Part shown: positions 3,446-62,557 of the stretch, piece by piece
Layout: every line of letters starts with the position of its first letter
Numbering within the stretch: position 1 is the stretch's first letter
Origin: Betaproteobacteria bacterium HGW-Betaproteobacteria-4
GTDB lineage: Bacteria; Pseudomonadota; Gammaproteobacteria; Burkholderiales; Rhodocyclaceae
Assembly: GCA_002840785.1 (NCBI GenBank)
Contig: PHCH01000005.1
Coordinates: forward strand, 1-64,000
Direction: 5' to 3'
DNA length: 64,000 nt
Position numbers and translations under genes: made by a program
Notes under the pieces: model-generated
Told to the model about the DNA's origin: nothing
What the model saw: only the letters and a program-made list of their open reading frames with translations
Databases searched by the model: none

Positions 3446-3919
3446 ATGAACCTCGACGACCAGTTTCTCGCCCGCGCCATCGAACTGGCCCGGCACGGCA
3501 GCGAAAGTGGCGAAGGCGGGCCGTTCGGCGCCGTCATCGTGCGCGACGGCAAGATCATCGCCGAAGGCTGGAACCGCGTCGTCGCCAGCCACGACCCGAC
3601 GGCCCACGCCGAGATCAGCGCTATCCGCACCGCCTGCGCCGGCGCCAACAGCTTCCACCTGCATGGCTGCACCCTCTACGCCTCGAGCGAACCCTGCCCG
3701 ATGTGCCTGTCCGCCGCATACTGGGCGCACATCGACCGCATCGTCTTCGCCAACAGTCGGGCCGAAGCCGCGGCCATCGGCTTCTGCGACGACGAGCTAT
3801 ACAGCGAACTGAACCGCCATTTTTCGTCGCGCAGCATCGTCATGGAACACCACCCGACACCGGGCGCGCTCGAACCGCTGGAACGCTGGGCGGCCAATCC
3901 GGGTCGAATCCCCTATTGA
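3446..3919 (+). CDS. Nucleoside (guanine/cytidine-type) deaminase
   Basis: HAEISAI and SSEPCPMCLSAAYW zinc deaminase motifs. Confidence 0.85.
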   Translation: MNLDDQFLARAIELARHGSESGEGGPFGAVIVRDGKIIAEGWNRVVASHDPTAHAEISAIRTACAGANSFHLHGCTLYASSEPCPMCLSAAYWAHIDRIVFANSRAEAAAIGFCDDELYSELNRHFSSRSIVMEHHPTPGALEPLERWAANPGRIPY

Positions 3920-3937
3920 GTCACCGGGGCCGCCCGC

Positions 3938-4255
3938 ATGCACTCCGAAGAAATTCCGCAACGTGCCGAAACCCTGCAGGTGCTGCGCCTGATCAGCGAG
4001 CATGAGCCCATCCTCATGCTCGGCAGCAACAATAATGGCTACGGCGAACGGTGGACGCTCTCCGGCCAGGAAGTCCAGCCGGCCATCGCCCAATTCCTGA
4101 TGAACAGCGGATTTATCGCCGAAATCGGCGAAACCGAACTCGGCGCCGTCAAGCTGGCCCTGACCGAAAAGGGCCGCGAATTCCGGGACAGGGGATTGGC
4201 CTGGTGGGCCGACCTCAACTTTCTCGAAAAGCTGAAAATCACGGTGTTCGGCTGA
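3938..4255 (+). CDS. Hypothetical protein (105 aa)
   Basis: ORF following the deaminase with plausible coding composition. Confidence 0.6.
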   Translation: MHSEEIPQRAETLQVLRLISEHEPILMLGSNNNGYGERWTLSGQEVQPAIAQFLMNSGFIAEIGETELGAVKLALTEKGREFRDRGLAWWADLNFLEKLKITVFG

Positions 4256-4444
4256 ACCGGCCGGGCAGGCCGAAAGCCGCATCCGGCTGTTTTACCCTGG
4301 CCGTAACCGCCACCATAAGCCGAAAGGACTAACTCTCGCGGCCAAGCGGCTACATCCGCTGAAACATTAGAAAATGATAATGGAACTCCATCTTGGCGCT
4401 TTGCACACGCAGGCGACGTCTTTCTATATTTGGAGTCCAATTTT

Positions 4445-4966
4445 ATGAACATCACGAAATCCGTAGCCGCCCTCGCCTTGGGCTTGGGTCTTGTTGCCAG
4501 CGCCCATGCTGCAACGCACGACTTGGGGACGGTCACTGCACCATCGACCTATTCCCAAGTAGTCCAGGTCGCCGTCGGCAGCTTTTCCGATCAATGGATA
4601 TTTGACGTCCCCACCACGTTGTTCTCCGGTGGCTCGGTCAGCAACCTGAACATTTCCATCCAGAATATCGGCGATCTATACAACATCAATGGCCTTTCCG
4701 TGCAGTTGTATGACAACGCCGATAGCTTGATCGCCAATCTCGATGGCAATGCAGGCAGTTCCGCCAACTACAAGGTCGGCTCCGGGGTGTTTGCGCCGGC
4801 CAACGACTATTACTTCACCGTCTCCGGCACGGCAACCGGCAGCCTCGGCGGTCAATACGTGTTCGCCGTATCGACCTTGCCGGTTCCTGAACCGGAATCC
4901 TACGCCATGCTGCTCGCCGGCTTGGGCCTCATCGGCGCCGTCGCCCGCCGCCGCGCTGGACGCTGA
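4445..4966 (+). CDS. PEP-CTERM sorting domain protein
   Basis: Signal peptide MNITKSVAALALGLGLVASAHAA; C-terminus PVPEPESYAMLLAGLGLIGAVARRRAGR. Confidence 0.9.
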   Translation: MNITKSVAALALGLGLVASAHAATHDLGTVTAPSTYSQVVQVAVGSFSDQWIFDVPTTLFSGGSVSNLNISIQNIGDLYNINGLSVQLYDNADSLIANLDGNAGSSANYKVGSGVFAPANDYYFTVSGTATGSLGGQYVFAVSTLPVPEPESYAMLLAGLGLIGAVARRRAGR

Positions 4967-5626: not shown

Positions 5627-6960
5627 GCCTGCGCCTCGAGACCATCCGCGAATGCCTGGAGGGCATCATCCCGGGCCACATCGCCACCTGCGACCGGGCC
5701 GGAATGCCCAACCTGGCCTACCTCTCCCAGGTCGAATTCATCGACAACGAGCACGTCGCGCTGTCCTACCAGTTCTTCAACCGCACCCGGCAGAACATCC
5801 TGGCCGACTCGCCGGTGCGCCTGCTGCTGACCAGCCACCTGACCGGCGCCCAGTACCGGCTGACCCTGCACTACCTGCGCACCGAGGCGGCCGGGCCGCT
5901 CTTCGAGCGAATGCGGGCCAAACTGGCTGGAATCGCCTCGCACACCGGCATGGCCGGCATCTTCCAATTGCTCGGCGCCGACATCTACCACGTGCTGAAC
6001 ATCGAACAGCTGCCCGGCGAAACCGTGCCGCCGCCTCCGCCACCGGTCAATTGCCTGAACGCCCTGCGCCGGACGGTCGACCGCCTGGCCACCTGCAACA
6101 CGCTGGAATGCCTGCTCGAAAAGGCCGTCGACTGCCTGGAAAAAGAGTTCGGCATAGCTCACCTCATGCTGCTCATGCACGATGAGGCACGCGGCCGGCT
6201 GTACACTCTGGCCAGCCGCGGCTACCCGGAATCCGGCATCGGCTCGGAAATCCCGGTCGGCGCCGGCGTCATCGGCATCTGCGCCCGCGAACGCACGCCG
6301 ATCCGGATCGGCTTCACCAACAGCGAGTACGCCTACGGCCGCACCGTGCGCGACGGCATCGCGGCCGATGGCCAGGCCGACACTCTGGAAACGGCCATTC
6401 CCCTGCCCGGCCTGCCCGATGCAGCGAGCCAGATGGCCGTGCCGATCAGCGTCGCCGGCCGCCTGCTCGGTGTGCTCTACGTCGAGAGCGTGTCCGACCT
6501 GCATTTCGGCTACGACGAAGAAGACGCCCTCGTCGCTTTCGCCGCGCAACTGGGTCTCGCCATCGTCCACCACCAGCCGGCCGACGATCTGCCCGACGAG
6601 CCGGCCGCCAGCGAGGAAGCGGCGCCGGCCGTCGCCGGCACACCGCTGACCATTCGCCACTTCGCCGCCACCGACAGCGTTTTCATCGACGACGACTACC
6701 TGATCAAGGGCGTCGCCGGGGCCATACTCTGGGTGCTGCTCAGCGATTTTGCCGAACGTCGGCGCACCAGTTTCACCAACAAGGGCTTGCGGGTCGATCC
6801 CCGCATCCGCCTGCCGGGCGTCAGCGACAACCTCGAAGCGCGTCTGGTGCTGTTGCAGCGCCGCCTGGAAGAACGCGATGCCGGCATCCGGCTGACCAAG
6901 ACCGGGCGCGGCCGTTTTTCTCTGGCCGTAGACCACCCGCTGCAGCTCGTCGAAAGCTGA
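5623..6960 (+). CDS. PNPOx-like N-terminus fused to GAF domain and C-terminal region
   Basis: HIATCDRAGMPNLAYLSQVEFIDNEHVALSYQFFNRTRQNIL (PNPOx-like), GAF-like IPVGAGVIGICARERTPIRIG...MAVPISVAGRLLGVLYVES. Confidence 0.65.
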   Translation: MSLRLETIRECLEGIIPGHIATCDRAGMPNLAYLSQVEFIDNEHVALSYQFFNRTRQNILADSPVRLLLTSHLTGAQYRLTLHYLRTEAAGPLFERMRAKLAGIASHTGMAGIFQLLGADIYHVLNIEQLPGETVPPPPPPVNCLNALRRTVDRLATCNTLECLLEKAVDCLEKEFGIAHLMLLMHDEARGRLYTLASRGYPESGIGSEIPVGAGVIGICARERTPIRIGFTNSEYAYGRTVRDGIAADGQADTLETAIPLPGLPDAASQMAVPISVAGRLLGVLYVESVSDLHFGYDEEDALVAFAAQLGLAIVHHQPADDLPDEPAASEEAAPAVAGTPLTIRHFAATDSVFIDDDYLIKGVAGAILWVLLSDFAERRRTSFTNKGLRVDPRIRLPGVSDNLEARLVLLQRRLEERDAGIRLTKTGRGRFSLAVDHPLQLVES

Positions 6961-46390: not shown

Positions 46391-46426
46391 GTTTCATTTT
46401 TGGGCGTTATTTCCGGTTGACCGTAG
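46391..46426 (-). repeat. Interspersed repeat copy 6 (in prophage)
   Basis: Minus: CTACGGTCAACCGGAAATAACGCCCAAAAATGAAAC. Confidence 0.85.
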
Positions 46427-46862
46427 CAGCCCAATTCCCCCGCAGGGTTTCCGAATCTCTCCGCTTGCCTCGCCACTCAGCATAGCCTGGGCCATCGAAC
46501 GGCACCAACCGCAGTCGTCCGAAGAACTCAGCCACGAGCGCGGCGCATACCGACTGCTGCGGGCGCCACAGCGCGGGATCGCGTCCGTCCAGCGTCGCCC
46601 AGTCATCCAGCGACTCGTACCAGATCAGCGCGATTGAGGCGCCATCATGGGCTGTGCTGATCTGTTTTACGACGGCATCGATAGCCGCCTGCCGCCATTC
46701 GAGCAGGCCACCTATCTTTTTTTCGACATCGGACGGCACGGCGCGATTGCCAGCCTCCCAGCGCCGCCAGGCCTGTTCGCTGGTTCCGCTGATCATTGCC
46801 GCGGCCTCGGGCTGAGAGAAGAAAAGAAGGCGGCGAGCCGCCTCCAGTTGGCAAGGAATCAT
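46407..46862 (-). CDS. HTH protein (DUF1870-like)
   Basis: FSQPEAAAMISGTSEQAWRRWEAGNRAVPSDVEKKI; C-terminus ATVNRK* encoded by interspersed repeat copy 6. Confidence 0.6.
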   Translation of the reverse strand: MIPCQLEAARRLLFFSQPEAAAMISGTSEQAWRRWEAGNRAVPSDVEKKIGGLLEWRQAAIDAVVKQISTAHDGASIALIWYESLDDWATLDGRDPALWRPQQSVCAALVAEFFGRLRLVPFDGPGYAEWRGKRRDSETLRGNWAATVNRK

Positions 46863-47140
46863 TTTGTGAAAAACCCTTCCTGGTGGGCTCCGGCGAGAAA
46901 GTGGCGGGCTGCGGGTTCGGTCTCGCCACCCCTGTACACCGAGCCGAGATTGCCGGAAGAAAACACCGTGCCGCGCGGCGTTCCGTTGATCATGCCTTCG
47001 ATGCGGTAGCCGCCGCAGAAATAAAGGTCAGCCGGCTGGTCATAAACATCAATTGCCTCGCAGGCGTCCATCGGATGGATTTCCAGATCAACCTTGACCT
47101 GGCCATGGATGGTATTGAATAGGTGGGTTGCGAGTTTCAT
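46859..47140 (-). CDS. Hypothetical phage protein
   Basis: MKLATHLFNTIHGQVKVDLEIHPMDACEAIDVYDQPADLYFCGGYRIEGMI. Confidence 0.5.
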   Translation of the reverse strand: MKLATHLFNTIHGQVKVDLEIHPMDACEAIDVYDQPADLYFCGGYRIEGMINGTPRGTVFSSGNLGSVYRGGETEPAARHFLAGAHQEGFFTK

Positions 47141-47197
47141 GGTGTAGCTCCTGAGAGTTCCGGCCTGGCCTGATTGCCTACCGTGTGAATTCATTAT

Positions 47198-47213
47198 GGT
47201 TCGTTTTCGAACC
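47198..47213. promoter_or_regulatory. Candidate operator GGTTCGTTTTCGAACC
   Basis: Perfect 6-bp dyad with 4-nt centre upstream of the minus-strand gene pair. Confidence 0.4.
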
Positions 47214-47229: not shown

Positions 47230-48141
47230 TCAAACTCCAGAAAACAAAACATAGAACTCCGCCTCGTCGATCACCTCGGCCCCGACCTCCTCCGCCCGCT
47301 CAAGCTTCTTCGGCCCGGCGTTTTTCCCGGCCACCAGGTGCGTCAGCCCCTCTGTCACCGACTGCCGTACCAGCATGTCTGCGCTGTGCGCCATGCCCTC
47401 AAGCCGCAGCTTGTCGGCCTTTGAAAACCCGGTAAAACATACCTCGATCATCCCCACATCGGCTTCGGCGTCGATACCGTCAAAACCTTCATCCTCATCG
47501 TCATCCCGCCCGACGGAAATACTTCCAGGATCATTCAGAGGATGCCGTCGAGCCGCTGCCGCCCAGGCCTTCGGCGCCAGCAGCTCGCCTGTTTCGCGGT
47601 CAAGCACCTTGCCGCGCACCCGGCCAATGACGAAAGTCCGTGTCGCATCCGCCTTGTGGCAATGCCCCTGGAAGTATTCACGGTCGACAGCCTCCACATC
47701 GACCCGGCGATGGCTGTCGGCGCCCTGTGCGTTGCGGTAATCGAATTCGATGTCAGCGATGGGGCATCGGCGTTCTGCCTTGTCATGCCAGCGCTGCAGA
47801 TCTTCGTGCGGTTCGTCGCTTGCATCGTAGATCGCCTGCGCCGTCGGCGACAGCGCGAACCCGACAGCAATTGCCGGCACCGTATCTGTGGCCGCTGCTC
47901 CCGGCACCGGCTCCCGAAAAGCCATGATCACCCCGGCGACCAGCAGCCAGCCGGCCAGCGTCCACCCATTAACATCGCCGAGCAACATGAACGCCAGGAT
48001 CACGCCGACCGCCAGCGCCCCGAATCCGGCGATAAAGTTCCGCGCCAGCCACCCCTTTCCGGCTGCAGCCAACTGGCGCGCGGTTCGGATCCACGTCAGC
48101 ACGATGCACAACAGCACCGCCAGAACTCCGATTTCGTTCAT
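47230..48141 (-). CDS. Membrane-anchored WYL-like + BRCT domain protein
   Basis: Two N-terminal TM segments; IEFDYRNAQGADSHRRVDVEAVDREYFQGHCHKADATRTFVIGRV (WYL-like); VCFTGFSKADKLRLEGMAHSADMLVRQSVTEGLTHLVAGKNAGPKKLERAEEVGAEVIDEAEFYVLF (BRCT). Confidence 0.75.
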   Translation of the reverse strand: MNEIGVLAVLLCIVLTWIRTARQLAAAGKGWLARNFIAGFGALAVGVILAFMLLGDVNGWTLAGWLLVAGVIMAFREPVPGAAATDTVPAIAVGFALSPTAQAIYDASDEPHEDLQRWHDKAERRCPIADIEFDYRNAQGADSHRRVDVEAVDREYFQGHCHKADATRTFVIGRVRGKVLDRETGELLAPKAWAAAARRHPLNDPGSISVGRDDDEDEGFDGIDAEADVGMIEVCFTGFSKADKLRLEGMAHSADMLVRQSVTEGLTHLVAGKNAGPKKLERAEEVGAEVIDEAEFYVLFSGV

Positions 48142-48171
48142 TCCCAACCCCCGAGAAAATACAGGGGTCAT

Positions 48172-48182
48172 AGTGTAACACT
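48172..48182. promoter_or_regulatory. Candidate repressor operator AGTGTAACACT
   Basis: Odd-centred perfect palindrome; core shared with 48566. Confidence 0.5.
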
Positions 48183-48186
48183 TGGC

Positions 48187-48543
48187 CTATTTGGCCAGCC
48201 GTACAGCCAAACACCTGAGAATGTCGGCATCCTCCTCGCTCAGGTTCATTTTCGATATTTCCAGAGCCAGGCGGTCCCTTGGCAAGTAAGCGGCAACATC
48301 CTGGCGAACGGACAGAGGCAGGCGCTCGCCGGTGAGAATGTAGATCACGTCGGCACCATGGCCGCGAAACAATTCCAACTGATCGGCGCGAGGGGAAGTT
48401 TTGTTCTCTTCGTAGTAGCGAACAACTTTTCTGTCGACGTCGAAAATATCGCCAAGATCGGCTTGTGACAAGGAAAGGCGGACGCGCTCCTCCCTCAATC
48501 GCTGGCCGATTGATGATTTTTCTTCCCTGTTGCCTGTTGACAT
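48187..48543 (-). CDS. XRE-family prophage repressor (CI-like)
   Basis: IGQRLREERVRLSLSQADLGDIFDVDRKVVRYYEENKTSPRADQL. Confidence 0.88.
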   Translation of the reverse strand: MSTGNREEKSSIGQRLREERVRLSLSQADLGDIFDVDRKVVRYYEENKTSPRADQLELFRGHGADVIYILTGERLPLSVRQDVAAYLPRDRLALEISKMNLSEEDADILRCLAVRLAK

Positions 48544-48565
48544 GGGTATTTTTCACCCCTACGAT

Positions 48566-48574
48566 GTGTAACAC
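48566..48574. promoter_or_regulatory. Candidate repressor operator GTGTAACAC
   Basis: Same palindrome core between divergent repressor and early operon. Confidence 0.5.
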
Positions 48575-48598
48575 TTACTCAGAGATCGCATCATCCCC

Positions 48599-48871
48599 AT
48601 GGAACCAATCAAGCGCAACCCCGACGGACTAGTCAGCAACAAGCCCATCGCCCTGCGGCTGATGCAGGCTGAATTGGCCGATGCCGATAAGATTTCCCGG
48701 GATCTCAATATCTCGAAGTCGCTGCTCGCACGTCAGGCCTATCTCGTCGGTCTCCCTATCGTTGTCTCCTCTGCTGCCGGCAACACCTCCCCCACCCCTC
48801 GGCTGGCGGCAGACTTTTCCGGCGGGGATGCTCCCCCCATCCCCGCCGGCCTTTCTTCGCAGACAGAATAG
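48599..48871 (+). CDS. Small phage regulatory-type protein
   Basis: First gene of the rightward early operon. Confidence 0.45.
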   Translation: MEPIKRNPDGLVSNKPIALRLMQAELADADKISRDLNISKSLLARQAYLVGLPIVVSSAAGNTSPTPRLAADFSGGDAPPIPAGLSSQTE

Positions 48872-54904: not shown

Positions 54905-55299
54905 CCACAGAAAACATAGCCAAAGCCTTCAACATCGATCCGGCCACCATTGAACTGGTCAACTCCACGGTCAACCGGAAAAACGAGCCAAAAACGGAAA
55001 GCTGCGACTGCCTCAACGACTGCGGCGACGACCCAAGGCTGGACAGCGGCAAGGTCGACTACTGCGACTACCACAAGAAACGCATCGCCATGCTCGCCAT
55101 GATCGAACGGATCCACTGGCTGAAGCCCGCCGACCGCCTTCCCGACGCCGACGAAACCGTCATGATCGTCACCCCGACCCATGACGACCCCGTCTGGCTC
55201 GGCTACTACGACGGCACCACCTGGATAACCGTCGAAGGCCTCCCCCTCGCCGACAACGCGGTCACCGAATGGGCACCCATGCCGCGAGGCCCGCAATGA
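54901..55299 (+). CDS. DUF551-like phage protein carrying an in-frame interspersed repeat
   Basis: IHWLKPADRLPDADETVMIVTPTHDDPVWLGYYDGTTWI; STVNRKNEPKTE from repeat copy 7. Confidence 0.65.
   Translation: MTTENIAKAFNIDPATIELVNSTVNRKNEPKTESCDCLNDCGDDPRLDSGKVDYCDYHKKRIAMLAMIERIHWLKPADRLPDADETVMIVTPTHDDPVWLGYYDGTTWITVEGLPLADNAVTEWAPMPRGPQ
54965..55000 (+). repeat. Interspersed repeat copy 7 (in phage gene)
   Basis: CCACGGTCAACCGGAAAAACGAGCCAAAAACGGAAA. Confidence 0.8.
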
Positions 55300-57077
55300 T
55301 CAACCATCGCGAAATCCGCCACTTCCACATGTGCGGCGCCATCGGTGGCGGCGCCAAGGGCTTCAACCGCGGCCAGGCGCGCGTCGGCAACCTGGTCGCC
55401 AAGTTCCGCTGCCTCGGCTCGGTCGATGTCGACGCCGCAGCCAACCGCGACTTCCAGCGCCTGGTCGGCGTGCCGGCGACGACGCTGGACCTCTTCGACC
55501 GCGACCAGTACCTCGCCTTCCACGGCAAGGAACCGCCGGCCGGCTGGCGCGAGGCCACCCCGGCGGACATCCGCGCCGCCGCCGGCCATGAGTTCCCGCA
55601 CATCGTCTTCACCAGCATGCCGTGCAAGGGCTTCAGCGGCCTGCTCAACGAGACCAAGAGCAAGACCTCGAAATACCAGGCGCTCAACCGCCTGACGCTG
55701 CGCGGCATGTGGCTGATGCTCGAAGCCTTCGCCGAGGATCCGCCCGAGCTGATCCTGTTCGAGAACGTCCCGCGCATCGCCACCCGGGGCCGCCACCTGC
55801 TCGACCAGATCAACAGCCTGCTGACCTCCTACGGCTACGCTGTCGCCGAGACCACCCACGACTGCGGCGAACTCGGCGGACTGGCCGAGAGCCGCAAGCG
55901 CTTCCTGCTCGTCGCCCGCCACATCGCCAAGGTGCCGCCCTTCCTCTACGAACCGGAGAAGAAGCGCCTGCAGGGCGTCGGCACGGTGCTCGGCCGCATG
56001 CCGCTGCCCGGCGACCTCACCGCCGGCCCCATGCACCGCGTGCCCAACCTGCAATGGAAAACGTGGGTCCGCCTCGCCTTCGTCGAAGCCGGCAGCGACT
56101 GGCGCAGCCTGAACAAGCTGGCGGTCGACAACGGCCACCTGCGCGATTTCCTGATCGTGCCGGAATTCAACCGTGGCTACCTCGGCGTCAATCGCTGGGA
56201 CGAGCCGGCCGGCACTATCACCGGAAACACCAGGGCCACCAACGGAAACTTCTCCGTCGCCGATCCGCGCTTCCCGGCCGGCGGCGAATACGGCCAGCTC
56301 GGTGTCCGCGCCTGGGACGAACCGACCGGCGCCATCACCGGCCAGCGCAGCCCCATCCAGGGCGGCTTCTCGGTCGCCGACCCGCGCCACTTCGGCCCGG
56401 CCAAGCACAGCAACGAATTCCGCATCGTGCCCTGGCACCAGAACGCCCAGACCGTCACCGGCGCCCACGGCACCGGCCAGTGCGTCGCCGACCCGCGCCG
56501 CGCCGGCGACGGCTTCGGCAAATACCTGGTCACCCCCTGGGACAGCCCCTCCGGCGCCGTCATTTCCGGCAGCACCACCGGCCAGGGCGCCTACGCCGTC
56601 GCCGACCCGCGCACCGGCCTCGATCGCGCCAAGGGCGACCACTACCTGACCGCCGGCCACTACGGCGTCACCCCGTGGGATAGCCCGAGCGGCGCCGTCT
56701 CGGCCGCCGCCGGACACGACAACGGCCGCTGGTCCGTCGCCGACCCGCGCATGCCGGAACAGACCGACAAACTGGTCGCCCGCATCCGCGCCCTCGACGG
56801 CACCTGGCACCGCCCCTTCACCACCCTCGAACTCGCCGCCCTGCAAAGCCTCGTCGATCCCGAAGAACACCTCGAACTCGACGGCCTCAGCGACAGCGAC
56901 TGGCGCGAACGCATCGGCAACGCCGTCCCGCCCGCAGCTGCCGAAGCAATCGCCGGCGTAATGGGCGTCACGCTGCTGCTGGCGTGGTCAGGCGAGACTT
57001 TCCTGCTCTCGTCCATGCCCATCTGGGTGCGGCCGGTAGCGATGGCACTGAGCGTTGCACAGGGAGGTGCAGCATGA
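55296..57077 (+). CDS. Divergent C5-cytosine DNA methyltransferase with internal repeats
   Basis: FHMCGAIGGGAKGFNRG, TSMPCKGFSGL, LFENVPRI, ESRKRFLLVAR, IGNAVPPAAAEAI; five VADPR-ending units. Confidence 0.85.
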   Translation: MINHREIRHFHMCGAIGGGAKGFNRGQARVGNLVAKFRCLGSVDVDAAANRDFQRLVGVPATTLDLFDRDQYLAFHGKEPPAGWREATPADIRAAAGHEFPHIVFTSMPCKGFSGLLNETKSKTSKYQALNRLTLRGMWLMLEAFAEDPPELILFENVPRIATRGRHLLDQINSLLTSYGYAVAETTHDCGELGGLAESRKRFLLVARHIAKVPPFLYEPEKKRLQGVGTVLGRMPLPGDLTAGPMHRVPNLQWKTWVRLAFVEAGSDWRSLNKLAVDNGHLRDFLIVPEFNRGYLGVNRWDEPAGTITGNTRATNGNFSVADPRFPAGGEYGQLGVRAWDEPTGAITGQRSPIQGGFSVADPRHFGPAKHSNEFRIVPWHQNAQTVTGAHGTGQCVADPRRAGDGFGKYLVTPWDSPSGAVISGSTTGQGAYAVADPRTGLDRAKGDHYLTAGHYGVTPWDSPSGAVSAAAGHDNGRWSVADPRMPEQTDKLVARIRALDGTWHRPFTTLELAALQSLVDPEEHLELDGLSDSDWRERIGNAVPPAAAEAIAGVMGVTLLLAWSGETFLLSSMPIWVRPVAMALSVAQGGAA

Positions 57078-59786: not shown

Positions 59787-60812
59787 ATGCCTGCCGTTAT
59801 TGAAAAAAACGCGACACACGAAACCGCCAAACGCGACATCGTTCCGGTGGCTCAACAGCCCCGCCTGCTCGACCAGGTTCGGGCCCGCATCTGCGTCCTG
59901 CACTACAGCCGGTCGACCGAGAAAACCTACATCCACTGGATTCTCGACTTCATCCGCTTTAGTGACCGGCGCCACCCGAAAGATATGGGCGCGCAGGAAG
60001 TTGAAGCCTACCTGTCGCACCTGGCTACCGACCGCGATGTCGCTGGCGGAACGCAGAACCAGGCCATGCATGCCATCCTGTTTCTCTACAAGCAGGTGCT
60101 CGGCATTGACCTACCCTGGCTGGACGGCGTCACACGAGCCAAGGAAAGCAAGCGCATTCCGACCGTCCTGACGCAGTCTGAGACACGGGCGCTACTCGAT
60201 CAGACCAGCGGACTGCCCGGACTAGTCATCCGCCTACTCTACGGTACCGGCATGCGCCTGATGGAAGGCCTGCGCCTGCGAGTCAAGGACATCGATTTTC
60301 ACGGCCGTGCTATCACCGTCCGTGCGGGCAAAGGAGACAAGGATCGCATCGTCCCGCTGCCGGAATGCCTGATCGAACCGCTTAAGGCCAGGCTCGACGA
60401 GCGGCGAAAGATGCATGACGTCGATCTCGCCAAAGGCATGGCCGACGTCGAACTGCCGCACGCTCTTGAACGGAAATACCGCAACGCCGGCAAGGAGTTC
60501 GGCTGGCAATACATCTTCGCCGCTGCCGACTACTCGACCGACCCGCGCACCGGCGTCATCCGCCGCCACCACCTGCACGAAAAGACTATCCAGCGCCACG
60601 TCAAGGAAGCCGCCCGGCGCGCCGGCATCCTGAAACCGACACACCCGCACACCCTACGCCACAGCTTCGCCACCCACCTGCTCGAATCCGGTGCCGACAT
60701 CCGCACCGTGCAGGAACTGCTGGGCCACGCCGACGTCTCGACAACGATGATCTACACCCATGTTCTCAACCGCGGCGGCCGCGGCGTCATCAGCCCGCTG
60801 GATAGGATCTGA
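59787..60812 (+). CDS. intI: Integron integrase (IntI-family tyrosine recombinase)
   Basis: [13 protein letters not shown]-like N-terminus; IntI-specific insert [63 protein letters not shown] catalytic region [39 protein letters not shown]. Confidence 0.95.
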
Positions 60813-60814
60813 TC

Positions 60815-60889
60815 ATGCCCGCCATCGACAACGATTCCCTGCTGGCCATCACCTCCGGCCTGCTCTACCTGGCCATCGTCTGGCAATGA
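60815..60889 (+). CDS. Putative micro-ORF after intI (24 aa, hydrophobic)
   Basis: MPAIDNDSLLAITSGLLYLAIVWQ; TGA overlaps next ATG. Confidence 0.3.
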   Translation: MPAIDNDSLLAITSGLLYLAIVWQ

Positions 60890-61125
60890 CCTCCTACGCC
60901 GCCCAGAAAGGCCGCGCCGCGCCAGTAGCAAAATCCGCGACGGATACTTTGCCACCACCCCTTACCGAGGTAGCTGAAGCCAGAATAGAGGCCAATAAGG
61001 GGTTCGTGCTCAATCACATGCCCGAGCTACTGCAGACCATCCGAGCATTGCACGCGGATGGAATGATCGACGGATGGCGTTCGGTGTTGCTGTGCACGCT
61101 GCTTGACGAATCGGGTAATGAGTAG
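60886..61125 (+). CDS. Small hypothetical phage protein
   Basis: 79-aa ORF upstream of the integrase module. Confidence 0.5.
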   Translation: MTSYAAQKGRAAPVAKSATDTLPPPLTEVAEARIEANKGFVLNHMPELLQTIRALHADGMIDGWRSVLLCTLLDESGNE

Positions 61126-61504
61126 TTTCCTGACAACCGCCGAGATTGCGGACCTGACGGATCGCCAGTTGCCGAGCAAGCAGATTGCCTGGCTGGCCGA
61201 AAACCGCTGGAAGTTCGCCGTCTCGGCCGCCGGCAGACCGAAGGTGGCGCGGTCATTCTATGATTTCATGCTCGGGACAGCGACGAAAGAACCCGACGAA
61301 CAACAAGAACCTGATTTCTCTGGCTGGGTGAACAAGCATGGTGGGGCGACGGAAAAGCAATCTGGAACTCGGCATGAGCCGGCTCTACGTCTACGAGGGA
61401 AAACGGACGACGACCTATTACACAATCGACCGCCACAACAAATACATCAACCTCGGCAAGGACCTTCGCTCAGCCAAAAAACAGCTGCTCGAGCTGGAAG
61501 GTGA
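61118..61504 (+). CDS. DUF4224-type protein, overlaps integrase
   Basis: SSFLTTAEIADLTDRQLPSKQIAWLAENRWKFAVSAAGRPKVARSFYDFMLG. Confidence 0.7.
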   Translation: MSSFLTTAEIADLTDRQLPSKQIAWLAENRWKFAVSAAGRPKVARSFYDFMLGTATKEPDEQQEPDFSGWVNKHGGATEKQSGTRHEPALRLRGKTDDDLLHNRPPQQIHQPRQGPSLSQKTAARAGR

Positions 61505-62366
61505 AGCGCCAGAACCCGGTACCATCGCCGACTACCTGGACGACCTGATCAAGGCGCGCTGGAAGCTGGTCGCGAAAAAGAAACTGGCCACTCGCACCGT
61601 CGAAACGAACGAATCGGAGGCAGAGAAGCTAAAAGACTTCTTCGGCAATATGAAGCCGGAGGCCGTCAAGCCATCCCACGTCTGGCTCTACCTGCACAAA
61701 TACCGCGGAGCCGAAAGCCCTGTCCGCGCCAACCGCGAAATTGCCCTTTTATCGACCCTGTTCAACGGCCTGCTCGGCGCCGGTATCGTCGACAGAAACC
61801 CGTGCGTCGGCGTCGAGCGAAACACCGAGACCCCGCGCGACAGACTGGTCAGCGATATAGAGTTCAAATCATTCCTGAAATACTGCTGGCGCCACGGCGA
61901 CGCCGGCCGCCGCATCGCCCTGGCCGGCTACATCGCCTACATCACCGGCAAGGCCCAGGGCCAAATCCTGAGACTCAACCGGGGCCAGCTAACCAAGGAC
62001 GGAATCGCGTTCGCCAAACGCAAGCGCGGCGCCGAAACGCTAGTCCTCTGGACCCCGCTACTGCGCAAGCTGATCAAGGCCTCGATAGACATGCCATGCA
62101 CCATCGATCCGCTCTACGTCATTCACAGCCAGGCCGGCACACCCTACACGACATCGGGATTCAAGGCCCTGTGGCATCGCCGCATGGGCGAATGGTGCGC
62201 CCTCGGCCACGAACGCTTCACCTTCCACGACCTTCGCGCCAAAGCCGTCACCGACATGACCGAGCAGGGCCGAAAAGCCAGCGACCTAACCGGCCACCGC
62301 CAGGAATCAACCATCGCCAGCGTCTACGACCGCCGCCGAGTCCGAAAATCCCACGCCGTGAAGTAA
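61338..62366 (+). CDS. int: Phage integrase (tyrosine recombinase)
   Basis: FTFHDLRAKAVTDMTEQGRKASDLTGHRQESTIASVYDRRRV; adjacent to attR/tRNA-His. Confidence 0.93.
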   Translation: MVGRRKSNLELGMSRLYVYEGKRTTTYYTIDRHNKYINLGKDLRSAKKQLLELEGEAPEPGTIADYLDDLIKARWKLVAKKKLATRTVETNESEAEKLKDFFGNMKPEAVKPSHVWLYLHKYRGAESPVRANREIALLSTLFNGLLGAGIVDRNPCVGVERNTETPRDRLVSDIEFKSFLKYCWRHGDAGRRIALAGYIAYITGKAQGQILRLNRGQLTKDGIAFAKRKRGAETLVLWTPLLRKLIKASIDMPCTIDPLYVIHSQAGTPYTTSGFKALWHRRMGEWCALGHERFTFHDLRAKAVTDMTEQGRKASDLTGHRQESTIASVYDRRRVRKSHAVK

Positions 62367-62479: not shown

Positions 62480-62524
62480 CTGGGGCGACTGATGGGGCTC
62501 GAACCCACGACAACCGGAATCACA
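62480..62524. repeat. attR
   Basis: 45 bp identical to attL 20933..20977. Confidence 0.95.
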
Positions 62525-62557
62525 ATCCGGGACTCTACCAACTGAGCTACAGCCGCC
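62481..62557 (-). tRNA. tRNA-His (GTG)
   Basis: GGCGGCTGTAGCTCAGTTGGTAGAGTCCCGGATTGTGATTCCGGTTGTCGTGGGTTCGAGCCCCATCAGTCGCCCCA; G-1:C73 pair; encoded CCA. Confidence 0.97.

Follow-up and report, generated by a model that had tools for sequence, protein, structure and literature searches.

What role does a membrane-anchored protein with a WYL and a BRCT domain have in a P2-like prophage, where its gene is located directly behind the repressor gene on the same strand? Such a gene is present in the window, which here means the whole 64,000-nt stretch of contig PHCH01000005.1 that was analysed. The minus-strand open reading frame described by an earlier, sequence-only reading was confirmed at 47230-48171, and in its maximal form it encodes a TM3-WYL-BRCT protein of 313 aa (ORF list, Pfam, AlphaFold, Foldseek). 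The first, annotated ATG has only a palindrome in front of it and no Shine-Dalgarno sequence. Because Met11 (48141) is preceded by a GGGGG Shine-Dalgarno-like run and aligns with the start region of the chromosomal relative L008, it is the likely true start. The gap from the repressor gene measures 15 nt to the annotated ATG and 45 nt to the likely start. The repressor itself (48187-48543, minus strand) has 118 aa and an HTH_3 domain without a peptidase domain (Pfam, PHROG), while a small Arc-like regulator (48599-48871, plus strand; phrog_3431, 6.7e-8) is the first gene of the early operon. The closest prophage in viral_contigs, L007, was rejected as an independent relative, since it represents the same phage and is 100% identical across the gene.

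The WYL-like region and the C-terminal BRCT domain had both been named from the sequence, and these names proved correct, since AlphaFold, Foldseek, VIA-align and the subfamily profile agree. The WYL domain, with an Sm fold, comprises residues 139-208 (47548-47757, minus strand). Pfam alone detects it at residues 141-186 with an E-value of 0.004, which is under its cut-off, and a WYL subfamily profile matches PafBC with an E-value of 9e-8. The BRCT domain, of the RFC1/LigA type, comprises residues 241-312 (47236-47451, minus strand), and its Pfam match at 243-307 is above the curated cut-off (E 7e-7). In the AlphaFold model, which was built from an alignment of 26 sequences, both domains exceed a pLDDT of 90 and are joined by a low-confidence linker. 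Foldseek searches against the PDB placed PafBC first for the WYL part (4.8e-4), with BrxR, CapW and DriD lower, and returned RFC1, LigA and Rad4 for the BRCT part. The BRCT fold was also recognized by VIA-align, with Z scores up to 11.8 and of 11.4 for RFC1; these rows concern the BRCT part only, and missing WYL rows there carry no information on the WYL domain. Matches in PADLOC were limited to single domains, namely a generic WYL and the C-terminus of PDC-S48, of which profile positions 337-405 of 411 are covered and not the full length.

The conserved residues of the two domains give hints about possible ligands. T247, K289 and the NAG motif of the BRCT domain are invariant in 26/26 aligned sequences. 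T247, after strand 1, and K289, at the start of helix 2, align with the FTG and GPKK motifs of RFC1, and we take both to be residues of the predicted BRCT phosphate pocket. The single BRCT domains of RFC1 and LigA thus resemble that of the window protein in fold and in these motifs, but the clamp-loader or ligase body is missing here. The BRCT domain of RFC1 has been modelled on 5'-phosphorylated dsDNA (PMC5333041). The WYL domain of PafBC binds ssDNA through R211 and R214, and mutation of both abolishes binding (PMC11804915); DriD also binds ssDNA (PMC12340889). In the window protein, F180 and R184 correspond to PafB F210 and R214, and V181 stands in place of R211, so that one of the two arginines is kept. 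This replacement makes ssDNA less sure as the ligand, and the WYL domain may bind another one. The WYL fold is common to PafBC, DriD, BrxR and CapW, but these are soluble transcription factors with a wHTH, whereas the window protein gave no match to an HTH and has hydrophobic helices at its N-terminus (Pfam, AlphaFold, hydrophobicity).

The annotation of this family points in another direction. Residues 142-310 of the window protein match PHROG 2561, named 'DNA ligase', with an E-value of 2e-27, and the protein has the features of that family, a WYL followed by a C-terminal BRCT and a gene behind the repressor in a lysogeny operon. The RefSeq name is 'BRCT domain-containing protein', and public phage records call soluble relatives (e.g., L002 5013-5495) 'DNA ligase' or 'putative exonuclease', although WYL and BRCT are the only domains that were found in these proteins. 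Both activities were rejected, for lack of a catalytic domain. With NAD-dependent DNA ligases the window protein shares the BRCT part only, which is the part that matches LigA models; the nucleotidyltransferase with its KxDG motif, the OB and the HhH were all absent from the 313 aa. It is nevertheless conceivable that the protein helps DNA metabolism as a ligase accessory, binding or protecting ends during replication, circularization or integration, as its BRCT is closest to LigA and RFC1 and the gene is often found beside int. Such a role is distinctly unlikely: in addition to the missing catalytic domain and KxDG motif, the protein carries a membrane anchor, and the gene resides in the lysogeny operon and not among the replication genes. 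Moreover, the related P2-like prophage L142, with the same primase family, has other genes in this slot and no WYL-BRCT; the gene is therefore accessory.

The membrane anchor differs from what the sequence-only reading had described. Instead of two N-terminal transmembrane segments, three hydrophobic segments were found at residues 9-25, 47-63 and 69-85 (47917-48147, minus strand; AlphaFold, hydrophobicity), and the N-terminal helices of the AlphaFold model extend over residues 11-36, 40-64 and 72-84. The loop between segments 1 and 2 is rich in K/R, and the short loop between segments 2 and 3 has none. This positive-inside distribution predicts an N-terminus outside, the first loop inside, the second loop outside and a cytoplasmic WYL-BRCT part. 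Of eight anchored proteins that were examined, most, including the window protein, fit the same pattern, which is kept although the N-termini of the window protein, L132 and L133 are just 22-34% identical; L133 has a weak third segment and an unclear topology pattern. L042 has two segments only, with five K/R right after the second, which would leave its C-terminus inside as well. Membrane insertion and topology of the anchored proteins are thus predictions from sequence.

The window protein forms one subfamily with those of the prophages L132, L133 and L143, which are 52-79% identical in WYL-BRCT. All four genes lie in P2-like prophages between gpD and the repressor gene, and at least four such prophages, divergent from one another, contain the anchored form. 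Other anchored WYL-BRCT proteins are encoded in L042 and L009. Between L132 and L133, dN is 0.13 and dS is 1.18, and therefore the protein is maintained, with purifying selection on its WYL-BRCT part. Where PafB has TFRLSR, 4/4 members of the subfamily carry TFVIGR; the loop is conserved and therefore does not reflect decay. An anchor with a WYL domain, but without BRCT, is present in L008 and in gp02 of the Yersinia phage vB_YenM_201.16, whose gene is located between repressor and integrase.

Searches with tblastn and with patterns recovered a large family of WYL-BRCT proteins from P2-like phages, among them Mannheimia PHL101, Vibrio PV94, Escherichia Cartapus and many IMG/VR prophages. Two alignments, A2 and A3, diverged too strongly to serve in pattern scans. 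Most members are soluble proteins of 160-190 aa, and a single soluble form is present in 172/5426 complete E. coli genomes. The anchor is therefore not needed for the basic function. PHL101 ORF34, PV94 gp04 and Cartapus CARTA_32 share both domains and their order with the window protein, and their genes lie in the corresponding slot of the lysogeny strand, usually directly behind the repressor. Compared with this soluble family, which has 'TFRKDR' in the WYL loop, the window protein adds the three-segment anchor and the 'TFVIGR' loop. A membrane-tethered BRCT domain had been considered unusual in a phage immunity region; BRCT in combination with WYL is common beside phage repressors, and what is rare is the membrane anchor.

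Behind the WYL-BRCT gene, variable genes follow, and then the integrase or gpD. This interval is a cargo slot that carries defence genes in other phages. Examples are a KAP NTPase corresponding to PADLOC PDC-S20 (2e-178) and a GHKL-ATPase protein matching type II restriction enzymes (2e-94) with an adjoining cytosine methyltransferase, and a HipA-like protein and a T5orf172 protein have also been found. The defence cargo beside WYL-BRCT is an association only. The two could be linked if the protein were a sensor or partner of its neighbour, switching the adjoining defence gene on or off, as WYL domains regulate defence systems (BrxR, CapW; PMC4012209) and the cargo stands directly behind the gene. 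This partnership is very unlikely, since the cargo changes between phages while WYL-BRCT stays, L044 and L047 have no cargo before int, and WYL-BRCT has no HTH. In L143, the anchored WYL-BRCT gene is separated from gpD by two ORFs of 131 and 251 aa with no clear family match (3644-4778); by eye, the shorter one looks HEPN-like.

In the window, the neighbouring cargo would be of a different kind. The region 46407-47213 looks like a candidate acr-aca2 operon, separate from the WYL-BRCT gene. An Aca2/YdiL-like HTH regulator (46407-46862, minus strand; PF08965, 1.6e-17) is preceded by an orphan ORF of 93 aa (46862-47140, minus strand) that overlaps its start and is a candidate anti-CRISPR. Apart from the same phage, the orphan had no match in Pfam, NCBIfam, PADLOC, phages or IMG/VR. 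An inverted repeat, GGTTCG-TTTT-CGAACC (GGTTCGTTTTCGAACC, 47198-47213), is located between the -35 (47221-47216) and the -10 (47198-47193) of an acr-aca promoter-like site, and acrIF8-aca2 has the same arrangement of genes and inverted repeat (PMC8434428). SMI1/KNR4 is other cargo known beside Aca2-like genes. The host genome, which is 93% complete, contains Cas1 and gave no match for Csy2 and Cas5d. Elsewhere in the window, the early region of the prophage includes a protein of 602 aa with a C-5 cytosine methylase domain (55269-57077), and two integrase genes stand in tandem (59787-60812 and 61338-62366; span 59787-62366) before a tRNA-His (62481-62556), which suggests either a compound insertion or two adjacent elements.

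Among 22 dereplicated loci of the WYL-BRCT family with more than 1 kb of upstream sequence, 18 have a repressor gene ahead of WYL-BRCT on its own strand, at a distance within 130 nt in 13, and of the neighbours scanned by PHROG, 10/10 were repressors. This same-strand position next to the repressor, the same in most relatives, makes expression in the lysogen a well-supported inference. It also raises the alternative that the protein is a damage-responsive regulator of lysogeny, in which WYL senses ssDNA and BRCT senses broken ends, and which alters repressor activity or induction where a short repressor cannot cleave itself. PafBC and DriD are WYL sensors that signal DNA damage through ssDNA binding (PMC11804915, PMC12340889), and in the window the gene is operonic with a short repressor without a peptidase domain. 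However, the repressors beside WYL-BRCT genes include self-cleaving S24 proteins (L003, L051, L121, L006) and 186-type CI in addition to short HTH proteins. The gene is therefore not a substitute for cleavage, and a direct interaction with partners of such different classes is unlikely; nor does such a regulator need a membrane anchor. The DNA-damage function proposed from the sequence is thus disfavoured in its pure form, a SOS switch solely for non-cleavable repressors, and the broader damage-responsive role is somewhat unlikely.

The sequence-only reading had also described an operator-like palindrome that the gene shares with the repressor. The operator-like element AGTGTAACACT does occur between the repressor and the TM-WYL-BRCT gene (48172-48182; sequence search), and with the start at Met11 it is intergenic, 31 nt ahead of that start. 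A second copy (TGTGTAACACT, 48565-48575; sequence search) directly follows the -10 of an early (lytic) promoter-like site, TTGACA-17-TACGAT (48537-48565, plus strand; consensus match only), which faces the Arc-like gene. The core GTGTAACAC is found exactly twice in 64 kb (48173 and 48566-48574), with 0.07 expected, and 0/100 shuffles reach two. As in the window, about 23 nt separate the element from the Arc-like start in L133, where it lies between the repressor and the Arc-like gene. In L142, TAACACTATAGTGTTA, a perfect palindrome of 16 nt, precedes a related P2-like repressor gene (6725-6810) and shares its half-site with AGTGTTACACT of the window. These copies make the element look like a putative early-region operator of this phage group, to which either the repressor or the Arc-like protein may bind. 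The sharing is not conserved at the junction: no element matching the WYL-BRCT leader was found there in L132 or L133, and its presence at the leader was seen only in the window. A shared operator as a conserved feature of this leader was rejected, as the element of L133 is present only in the early promoter region and L132 and L143 have none.

The explanation that we tentatively prefer is that of a lysogen-expressed DNA-structure sensor in the inner membrane, serving superinfection exclusion or defence, in line with part of what the sequence-only reading had proposed. According to this explanation, an accessory lysogeny gene would be expressed from the repressor operon, and its product would sit in the inner membrane with the WYL and BRCT pair facing the cytoplasm. 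By analogy with characterized relatives, the pair would most likely recognize ssDNA and/or a 5'-phosphorylated DNA end and, in the lysogen, might serve to exclude incoming phage DNA or to defend against it, either on its own or as the sensor on which effectors depend. We infer DNA as the ligand and exclusion or defence as the outcome. This outcome is favoured because those relatives bind ssDNA (PafBC, DriD) or 5'-phosphorylated DNA (RFC1) and because defence genes (PDC-S20, the type II restriction enzyme) are present in the slot. A more specific version, which is rather improbable, is a membrane-tethered trap for DNA ends or ssDNA. In this version, the anchored WYL-BRCT would catch phage DNA by its single-stranded, 5'-phosphorylated cohesive ends during passage across the inner membrane and would block circularization or entry. 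If true, this would be a superinfection exclusion aimed at the structure of the DNA end, and neither at a receptor nor at a sequence.

Fusions of WYL and BRCT were already listed by Makarova and co-workers in 2014, without further study (PMC4012209). In the literature searched, no description was found of the phage WYL-BRCT family, its anchored form or any role for it, and there was no mention of PDC-S48 and nothing tying BRCT to lysogenic defence hotspots of P2-like phages. The fusion is therefore known, and the anchored form is one for which that literature gave no earlier description. Under the misnomers 'DNA ligase' and 'exonuclease', WYL-BRCT proteins constitute a widespread family whose genes occupy a conserved position in the lysogeny operons of P2-like phages. 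The existence of an anchored variant suggests that the sensing of DNA at the inner membrane is of importance to lysogens.
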